Positions 15,754 to 17,896 of a DNA stretch of 38,753 bases are shown here, piece by piece. Position 1 is the first letter of the stretch. The number at the start of each line of letters is the position of its first letter. The notes under the pieces are model-generated. The model had not been told where the DNA came from. It saw nothing but the letters and a program-made list of their open reading frames with translations, and did not search any database. Source of the stretch: Pseudomonadota bacterium (GTDB taxonomy: Bacteria > Pseudomonadota > Gammaproteobacteria > Xanthomonadales > Xanthomonadaceae); assembly GCA_020161335.1 (NCBI GenBank), contig JAIUOJ010000016.1, positions 1 through 38,753 on the forward strand, written 5' to 3'. A program made the position numbers and the translations under genes.

Positions 15754-16359
15754 TCAGCCGTGCCTGCGCGCGAGCAACACCTTGAACGCGGCCAGCGCAA
15801 AGAAGTAGAACGCCATTCCCGCCACGGCGGTGTGCGGTCGCTCGATCCATTCGCCGCCGCCGGGCAGCTGCAGGCCGGCGACCACCGCCGGCGTCAGGCC
15901 CAGTCGTGGCAGGGGCAACACCACGGCGCCGAACACCGCCGCCAGGTAGGCGACCACCGAGAACGCCCAGGTGCCGACCTGCCGGTTCGCCTCGCGCGCG
16001 TCGGCGGCCTGGTTGCTGGCGATCCACAGCAGTTTGCCGCCCACCAGCCACGCGAACACCGGCAGCGGCCACCACTGCCCGAAGCCGATGCAGATCGCGA
16101 GCACGAACAGCAGGTAGAACGCGGACAGGCCGAGCGTGGCCAGCACCCGCTGCCAGCGTTGCCCGCCGGCCATCGTCGGCACCATCGCGAAGAAGCCGGC
16201 GCCGTGCACCAGCACGAACTCCATCAGCATCATCGCCACGATCGTCTTCACCGCGTGGGGCCCGAAGGCGTGCGGCGCGATCCAGACCACCACGCAGGCG
16301 AGGCCGGAGACGACGTCGATGGCCGGTGCCAGGAAGCGCAGTGGCGGATGTGGCGGCAT
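15754..16359 (-). CDS. Unknown integral membrane protein
   Basis: I do not recognise a named family. The 201-aa protein has six or so hydrophobic segments: near residues 8-28, 37-60, 72-95, 98-112, 128-150 and 180-196. It resembles in size and layout small polytopic proteins of the DoxX/DUF4345 kind, but I see no decisive motif. LVHGAGFFAMVPTMAGGQRW in the second loop and a charged C terminus RRHG are notable. It converges on the DUF3999 gene (15 bp between stops) and is divergent from pgk, with a 361-base gap between its start and the pgk start. Codon use matches its neighbours, so it is a real gene. Confidence 0.7.
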   Translation of the reverse strand: MPPHPPLRFLAPAIDVVSGLACVVVWIAPHAFGPHAVKTIVAMMLMEFVLVHGAGFFAMVPTMAGGQRWQRVLATLGLSAFYLLFVLAICIGFGQWWPLPVFAWLVGGKLLWIASNQAADAREANRQVGTWAFSVVAYLAAVFGAVVLPLPRLGLTPAVVAGLQLPGGGEWIERPHTAVAGMAFYFFALAAFKVLLARRHG

Positions 16360-16449
16360 CGGCAGGGTCCAGTGGATCGAGAAGGCGTCGGCGGCGCGGC
16401 GAACGGCGAAACAGGCCGATCACCGCCACGCCGATCCCGGCAAGGCCGT

Positions 16450-16478
16450 TTGCCTGCCTTGCGGGTGACGACGACAAT
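16450..16478 (+). promoter_or_regulatory. Candidate pgk promoter, upstream of the first copy of the pgk 5' end
   Basis: TTGCCT (16450-16455), 17-base spacer, GACAAT (16473-16478), followed by AGCCGGG. It is the best promoter match in the 361-base gap and sits 29 bases before the ATG of the duplicated 5' end, not before the real pgk start. Transcription from it would give a 5' leader of roughly 235 bases for pgk. Confidence 0.6.
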
Positions 16479-16507
16479 AGCCGGGAACCCACGGCGACGG
16501 CGCATCC

Positions 16508-16582
16508 ATGACCATCCTCCGCATGACCGACCTCGATCTCTCCGGCAAGCGCGTGCTGATCCGGCAGGGCGAGCCGGCATGA
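16508..16582 (+). pseudogene. 24-codon leader ORF: duplicated pgk 5' end
   Basis: This ORF begins with 20 codons encoding the same amino acids as the start of [23 protein letters not shown], then reads GEPA and stops at TGA (16580-16582). It differs from the real pgk copy at only two bases in the shared 61, both silent third positions (CTC here, CTT in pgk codons 9 and 11). It lies directly behind the best promoter, so it is probably transcribed and may be translated. It may be a remnant of the original gene start, left behind when the 152-base insert arrived, or it may have become a leader peptide. The peptide itself contains only the first beta strand of PGK and cannot be active. Confidence 0.8.
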
Positions 16583-16720
16583 GTGGACTGCCCTATCGGC
16601 AGTCCACGCCGGCGAGCGACCGGCCATGGATGGCCGGGCCGGTGGTTCCGAAGCCGATCCTGCAACGCCATGGATGGCGCGTTGTCCAGACTTTTTCCTC
16701 GACCCGTTGCGAGTAGCCCG
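16569..16720 (+). repeat. Hairpin-rich 152-bp insert in the pgk leader
   Basis: Three stem-loops follow one another. First, GTGGACTGCC-CTATC-GGCAGTCCAC (16583-16607), a perfect 10-bp stem further flanked by GCCGGC on both sides. Second, CCGGCCA-TGGA-TGGCCGG (about 16621-16638), a perfect 7-bp stem. Third, CAACGCCA-TGGA-TGGCG(C)GTTG (about 16667-16688), an 8-bp stem with one bulge. The last two share the core CCATGGATGG. A CTTTTT run follows at 16691-16696. The composition is that of a REP-cluster or small non-autonomous element; no transposase is present. The real pgk has no clear Shine-Dalgarno in the last bases of the insert. Confidence 0.7.
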
Positions 16721-17896
16721 ATGACCATCCTCCGCATGACCGACCTTGATCTTTCCGGCAAGCGCGTGCTGATCCGGCAGGATCTCAACGTGCCGATCGA
16801 CGACAACGGCCGCATCACCTCCGAACAGCGCATCACCGCGTCGATCCCCACGCTGAAGCTGGCGTTGGAGAAGGGTGCGGCGGTGCTGGTCACCTCGCAC
16901 CTCGGCCGGCCGAAGGAAGGCGAGTGGAGCGCGGAGAATTCGCTGGCGCCCGTGGCGAAGCGGCTGGGCGAGCTGCTCGGCACCGAGGTGCCGCTGGTGC
17001 GCGACTGGGTGGACGGCGTGGAGGTGGCGCCGGGCAGCATCGTGCTGCTGGAAAATTGCCGCATGAACGTCGGCGAGGGCAAGGATGACGAGGCCCTGTC
17101 GAAGAAATACGCCGCGCTGTGCGACGTGTTCGTGATGGACGCCTTTGGCACCGCGCATCGCGCGCAGGCCTCCACGCACGGGGTGATCCGCTTCGCGCCG
17201 GTCGCGGCCGGCGGCCCGCTGCTGATGGCCGAACTCGATGCGCTGGACAAGGCGCTCGCCAACCCCGCGCGTCCGCTGCTGGCGATCGTCGCCGGCAGCA
17301 AGGTCTCGACCAAGCTGGAACTGCTGACCAGCCTGGTCGGCAAGGTCGACCAGCTGATCGTCGGCGGCGGCATCGCCAACACCTTCATCGCCGCCGAAGG
17401 CCACGCGGTGGGCAAGTCGCTGTACGAGGCCGACCTGGTCGGTACCGCGCGGAAGATCGATGCCGATGCGAAGGCGCGCGGCGCCGAGATCCCGCTGCCG
17501 ACCGACGTGGTGGTGGCCAAGGCCTTCGCCGCCGACGCGCCGGCCACGGTGAAGCCGGTGGACGCGGTCGCCGACGACGACCTGATCCTCGACATCGGCC
17601 CGGAGACCGCCGCGCGCTACGCGGCGCTGATCGCTTCCGCCGGCACGGTGGTCTGGAACGGCCCGGTCGGCGTGTTCGAGTTCGACGCCTTCGGCAAGGG
17701 CACCGAGACCCTGGCGCGCGCGATCGCCGCATCGAAGGCGTTCTCGATCGCCGGCGGCGGCGACACCCTGGCGGCCGTCGACAAGTACGGCATCGCCGGC
17801 GACGTGTCCTACATCTCCACCGGCGGCGGCGCCTTCCTCGAATTCCTCGAGGGCAAGACCCTGCCCGCGGTGGCCGCGCTCGACGCACGCGGCTGA
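16721..17896 (+). CDS. pgk: Phosphoglycerate kinase
   Basis: Transfers a phosphate between 1,3-bisphosphoglycerate and ADP in glycolysis (reverse in gluconeogenesis). 391 aa, full length. Visible motifs: RQDLNVPID (substrate-binding Arg/Asp), [38 protein letters not shown], the ATP-side [38 protein letters not shown] and [13 protein letters not shown]. The first 20 codons are duplicated 213 bases upstream; this downstream copy continues into the complete enzyme, so it is the functional start. Codons 9 and 11 are CTT, uncommon in this GC-rich sequence, where the upstream copy has CTC. The gene converges on a GNAT gene with 7 bases between stops. Confidence 0.97.

Follow-up and report, generated by a model that had tools for sequence, protein, structure and literature searches.

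The leader of a bacterial pgk gene carries a copied gene start and a dispersed element with paired GGA-loop hairpins

We analysed a window of 38,753 nt, which is contig C16 of a draft genome of 252 contigs and contains the gene pgk on its forward strand. The first 61 nt of pgk are present twice, at positions 16508–16568 and 16721–16781, with 59 of 61 letters identical and a spacing of 213 nt. An ATG opens both copies, and the repeat comparison places the true start of pgk (391 aa, 16721–17896) at the second, while an insert of 152 nt (16569–16720) lies between them. Among the 20 direct-repeat families listed for the window, out of at least 60, this is the only one of at least 45 nt with more than 90% identity. 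The first copy opens a leader ORF of 24 codons on the same strand (16508–16582, stop TGA at 16580–16582), and both differences between the repeats are silent when the leader codons are compared with those of pgk. The repeat with its ATG starts and insert, the leader length and the silence of the two differences had been described in an earlier sequence-only reading of this DNA and were reproduced here. Additionally, a stretch of about 120 nt is duplicated in tandem elsewhere in the window (1954–2004/2074–2124 and 2001–2040/2122–2161); this duplication repeats the last codons and stop of an ORF ending at 1991 (84% over 51 nt) and also copies a different palindrome (93% over 40 nt).

The insert was correctly noted by the sequence-only reading, which missed, however, that it holds a dispersed repeat with two GGA hairpins, here termed element E (16566–16682, forward strand), parts of which recur elsewhere in the window's own genome. 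The covariance model of E was built from 22 copies at other genes, and the copy at pgk is the only strong one in the window (model R1, 104.5 bits, E-value 3.3e-23; next best 16.6 bits); Rfam 15 models gave no match to 15900–17200 up to an E-value of 1. The overall structure of E comprises three hairpins within about 103–128 nt. In the consensus of the 22 copies, about 120 nt long, SL1 is built of two stems (outer and inner), whereas SL2 and SL3 each have one, of 8 bp and 3 bp, respectively. Specifically, sequence and consensus folds place SL1 of the window at 16573–16613 on the forward strand, with its outer stem at 16573–16578/16608–16613 and its inner stem at 16583–16592/16598–16607, and the leader stop falls between these two stems. 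SL2 (16620–16637, forward strand) presents the loop AUGGAU at 16626–16631, and SL3 (16664–16683, forward strand) presents the same loop at 16670–16675, 38 nt past that of SL2; both loops follow the pattern ANGGAN. The fold of the whole window leader barely beats shuffles (z −1.69).

We compared the region upstream of pgk in relatives. A same-genus search covered 52 genomes including the window's own and recovered the pgk start in 49 of them (none for G034, G068, and G070). The leader is carried by ten of the 49 (G000, the window's genome, and G001, G008, G011, G014, G015, G022, G032, G036, and G074) and is absent from the other 39, so that it is dispensable. In G008, G011, and G032 the leader is doubled in tandem with a period of 211–213 nt; copy number thus varies, a feature missed by the earlier reading. 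A sample of 395 genomes from the family, including 36 of the same genus, added the carriers G076 and G230, which belong to two other genera; two candidates were scored per genome, so that its yield is a lower bound. Two carriers were found among 80 named records, namely L122 (Luteimonas), which seems to be identical to G001, and the Lysobacteraceae record L133, which was assembled from a metagenome. Across the order, 398 genomes were searched with a pattern that required particular letters and allowed two mismatches, so that the yield is likewise a lower bound; it hit 27 places in 24 genomes, of which five lie at pgk, all five in carriers, and 22 have no pgk nearby. This search added G597 and G665 from a different family, whose PGK proteins are 75% and 74% identical. 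So far, 15 distinct genomes in two families of the order carry 18 leader copies. When the trait is mapped onto a tree of pgk from which the first 120 nt were left out, seven or more changes are required among the 49 genomes.

The junction is common to all 18 leaders: the pgk copy runs through codon 20 and is followed by the residues GE of GGCGAG, continuing as GEP in 17 leaders and as GEL in G022. The earlier reading had rightly proposed the relatives as a test. Since relatives in two families carry the same leader, an inert one-off scar is ruled out. An assembly artefact, which the draft state of the genome with its 252 contigs might suggest, is extremely improbable, as 14 other genomes show the same structure and two of them, G008 and G011, are single-contig assemblies.

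To place the pgk copies of E among the others, we trimmed all copies to the same model ends and searched for nearest relatives of the pgk copies from all 15 carriers plus the leaderless G212 (16 genomes). For each of the 19 pgk copies, a pgk copy from a different genome is closer than every one of the 92 other E sequences, and GGCGAGCCGG stands at the left end of E in 14 of 15 pgk copies and in none of 79 others, so the junction of pgk and E would have arisen once before the two families split, or was transferred. Leaders match the gene of their own genome at a mean of 59.1 of 61 positions and one another at 54.3 of 61, and for 13 of 15 no other carrier's gene is closer than their own. Tandem copies that are almost identical (G008, G011, and G032) and homology over about 80–90 nt upstream of both ATGs (G076 and G230) point to a tandem duplication of the unit E, UTR and first 61 nt of pgk, which was later homogenised. 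The flanks of the repeat, formerly called unrelated, are unrelated in the window but not in these last two genomes. By eye, G025, G031, G212, and G254, and doubtfully G024, also have E or part of it at a pgk that lacks the leader; these are either ancestral or collapsed arrays.

The leader frame, with its start and stop, is open in all 18 copies of the 15 genomes, and in most of them the stop sits at the base of SL1. Compared with the pgk genes of the same genomes, the leaders show 18 silent and ten replacing codon differences. The earlier reading took the silent changes in the window as a hint of a selected peptide, proposing that translation of the PGK-like 24-mer controls pgk. The open frame, the position of the stop and the 18 silent differences are in line with this proposal, but the replacements include L9P, L11R, D10Y, K14E, and R15C, the stop is shifted in L133, G597, and G665 (31, 30, and 31 codons, respectively), and homogenisation with a constrained gene can yield silent differences and could give the open frame for free. 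In addition, eight of the 28 differences (seven silent, one replacing) come from G001, and the other 20 split into 11 silent and nine replacing. It seems that in G001 the pgk gene rather than the leader has changed, because its leader is 60/61 identical to that of G036. Features of a leader-peptide attenuator were also sought; the peptide varies, and a terminator scan of 16350–16850 revealed no terminator-like site. We regard control of pgk by this peptide as improbable; selection on the peptide is unproven and probably not what matters most here, and because the leader tolerates changes such as L9P and L11R, the peptide is probably a by-product.

The leader itself is very probably transcribed, as judged from a promoter motif conserved among relatives. 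In the window, the promoter-like sequence TTGCCT-N17-GACAAT (16450–16478, forward strand) contains a TTTG-N-ACAAT motif that ends 29 nt ahead of the leader ATG. In 46 of the 49 same-genus genomes (all except G023, G062, and G063) the motif is no more than 130 nt away from the first ATG, and in all ten carriers among them it precedes the first leader, ending 29–105 nt before it. Since a strict sigma-70 scan found zero sites in 16350–16850, the earlier view of this site as the only good promoter rests on this conservation; the expectation that the leader is transcribed agrees with the same motif.

The loops of E were then compared across copies. In the alignment of 15 pgk sequences, A and GGA are invariant in both loops and both N positions vary; the SL2 loop of G597 and G665 has five letters, AGGAU. 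The 22 copies at other genes share the SL2 pattern and nearly share that of SL3. Among 73 distinct copies, which include the training and pgk copies, the letters A, G, G, and A were found 57, 60, 58, and 56 times in the 61 SL2 loops scored and 59, 62, 61, and 62 times in the 63 SL3 loops scored; some of the unscored copies bear the loop on a changed stem. Each N position varies among three or four letters. A further 37 copies formed a separate set, drawn from 28 genomes in 27 other genera, and show ANGGAN in 31 SL2 and 33 SL3 loops, and GGA in 34 of each. Double changes occur in 24 of 33 base pairs of this set, with a covariation score of 0.446 versus 0.143 in shuffles; fitting this alignment to the model gives an advantage to pairing but not to the loop letters, and the double changes lie mostly in SL1. 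In SL2, the stem GGCC/GGCC is replaced by GUCC/GGAC, GGGC/GCCC, or AGCC/GGCU, and in G008 the stem is GCAC/GUGC, with the loop still ANGGAN; the exceptions are L291 (stem GACC/GGUC, loop AGAGAU) and L289 (stem GGGG/CCCC, loop CAGGAG). Finding copies by similarity cannot explain why only the two N positions vary within six adjacent letters. Variant elements in G665 (L246 1501–1628 and L253 1501–1628) combine the left end and first hairpin of E with other downstream hairpins, and again place AGGA in the loop position (GGCAGGAGCC, GCGCAGGATGCGC).

E is widely dispersed. With 150 candidates scored per genome, matches at an E-value of at most 0.01 number 12 in G000, 18 in G008, 12 in G015, 125 in G026, 9 in G076, 3 in G597, and 11 in G665. 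At a threshold of 1e-5 with stricter filters, at least one copy is present in 43 of 60 family genomes and 40 of 53 genera, and the window's genome has only five copies at 1e-5. Frequently an ORF runs into E and takes its stop codon from it: a sense ORF of at least 80 codons ends within the first 45 nt of E in 21 of 55 non-pgk copies, versus two of 55 on the other strand and one of 55 at a control position (counted with a GC3 filter because the DNA is GC-rich), and many copies lacking an ORF end are inner members of arrays. One reversed copy in the window's own genome (L004 1475–1596, contig C221) apparently lies within the N-terminal part of an opposite-strand ORF, which from its motif looks like a radical-SAM (HemW-like) gene. 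Tandem arrays of E also exist at loci other than pgk. Arrays of three to five E-like units with a period of about 113–126 nt were seen at L241 1027–1621 and L091 524–1104 (G026), and further ones at L238 1249–1618 (G008) and L259 1274–1607 (G076). At 23 other E loci, flanking direct repeats are short or weak (best 63 nt at 75%), so the gene-start duplication is special to pgk in that sample. A transposon target-site duplication is ruled out by the lack of strong repeats at these loci, in agreement with the earlier statement that the pgk repeat is not an ordinary target duplication.

E might instead work as DNA, as a REP-like hairpin kept for transposition with ANGGAN as a DNA recognition sequence. 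It is dispersed, forms tandem arrays and overlaps stop codons as some REPs do (PMC3733652); against this stand the strand bias at gene ends (21/55 versus 2/55) and loop letters that match the CsrA rule exactly, and we consider this reading rather unlikely. GTAG/CGTC REPs resemble E in that they are scattered palindromes, extend across the ends of genes and can provide a stop codon (PMC3733652), but E is not of this type, a palindrome of 20–40 bp: it has about 103–128 nt, three hairpins with ANGGAN loops and no end tag, and by eye the consensus of the 22 copies ends untagged in GGGTGAG on the left and GGCA on the right.

A further reading is that the leader is a neutral minisatellite, a slippage product beside a repeat-prone hairpin element without effect on pgk. 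This is possible, given the tandem arrays of E at other loci, the absence of the leader from most relatives and the seemingly unconstrained replacements within it. However, a 61-nt repeat with copies about 213 nt apart should collapse easily, and yet two families retain the identical junction; in addition, E at pgk keeps its loop letters while the stems change.

CsrA/RsmA sites are generally of the form ANGGAN. Read at the level of sequence, the loop pattern of E is the described signature of such sites, paired as for one dimer, with two GGA (ANGGA) loop hairpins whose loops lie 38 nt apart, and the window's genome has a csrA gene for a protein of 68 aa (90.5 bits against a cut-off of 27). CsrA recognises GGA-loop hairpins, two per dimer (PMC7366521), and E most likely binds one RsmA/CsrA dimer. 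We see about an even chance that an array of E, 5'UTR and pgk codons 1–20, inherited and homogenised, puts RsmA-type sites into the pgk leader and favours expression. The array unit would be E, 5'UTR and the first 61 nt of pgk, with the last unit continuing into the real gene; a single tandem duplication would have been inherited or transferred, and slippage or gene conversion would keep the copies alike and produce gains (two leaders) and losses (no leader left). The conserved promoter would yield a transcript of leader ORF, E, UTR and pgk. Ribosomes on the leader would halt in or just past the first half of SL1, as on other genes ending at E, and leader translation may deliver ribosomes to E just as happens where ordinary genes end. 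RsmA on SL2 and SL3 could then shield the untranslated stretch from decay or premature termination, giving more pgk.

That RsmA favours pgk is a guess by analogy, and the sign could be opposite, with repression possible. The guess draws on two precedents: in X. citri, RsmA stabilises hrpG mRNA via its 5'UTR (PMC3937308), and CsrA favours the gap part of the Legionella tkt-gap-pgk-pyk operon (PMC5338858). Classic start-blocking repression is not indicated, because the ribosome-binding region of pgk is free of any GGA. Several observations count against the array reading. RsmA did not bind the GGA-containing leaders of hrpC and hrpE (PMC3937308) and still bound RsmU after its four predicted GGA motifs had been replaced (PMC7694677), so GGA motifs are not a sufficient predictor; furthermore, 39 of the 49 same-genus genomes lack the leader, the window's genome has few E copies at the 1e-5 threshold, and its leader as a whole folds little better than shuffles.

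Several known systems share parts of this arrangement. RsmU, an RsmA-sequestering sRNA that derives from the XC1332 3'UTR of Xanthomonas campestris (PMC7694677), is like E an RNA at an mRNA 3' end with several GGA motifs; RsmA binds RsmU and is predicted to bind E, but RsmU is a single locus reported as limited to Xanthomonas, whereas E is dispersed in many genera and has two ANGGAN hairpins. The hrpG 5'UTR (PMC3937308), which comes from the same family, resembles the pgk leader in its length and its GGA hairpin, but it has no repeat element or duplicated gene start, and RsmA binding is demonstrated there and predicted for pgk. In Legionella pneumophila, CsrA acts on a glycolytic transcript that includes pgk, as it putatively does here; unlike in the window, the site lies within the gap coding region and there is no leader array (PMC5338858). 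The ingredients are thus known: CsrA hairpins, RsmA sponges at 3' ends, and REP-like elements that provide stop codons. Among the open-access literature matches listed, we recognised no earlier description of E or of the duplicated pgk start.

Homologues of CsrB, CsrC, RsmV, RsmW, RsmX, RsmY, and RsmZ are reported absent from all sequenced Xanthomonas genomes (PMC7694677). We tentatively suggest that E may be the family's distributed RsmA-binding system, an amplifiable two-site module that plugs genes into RsmA control, with processed 3' ends titrating RsmA where CsrB/RsmZ-type sRNAs are missing; the pgk array might then be a copy-number dial, in which every additional unit brings one more dimer site to a glycolytic leader and costs a copied gene start. 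Of the two findings, the E family is of greater interest than the pgk leader: with paired GGA hairpins in 40 of 53 genera sampled in the family, it would offer a directly testable answer on how RsmA is wired and buffered there, and it would exemplify a repeat element that draws housekeeping genes, including pgk, into a global regulon.
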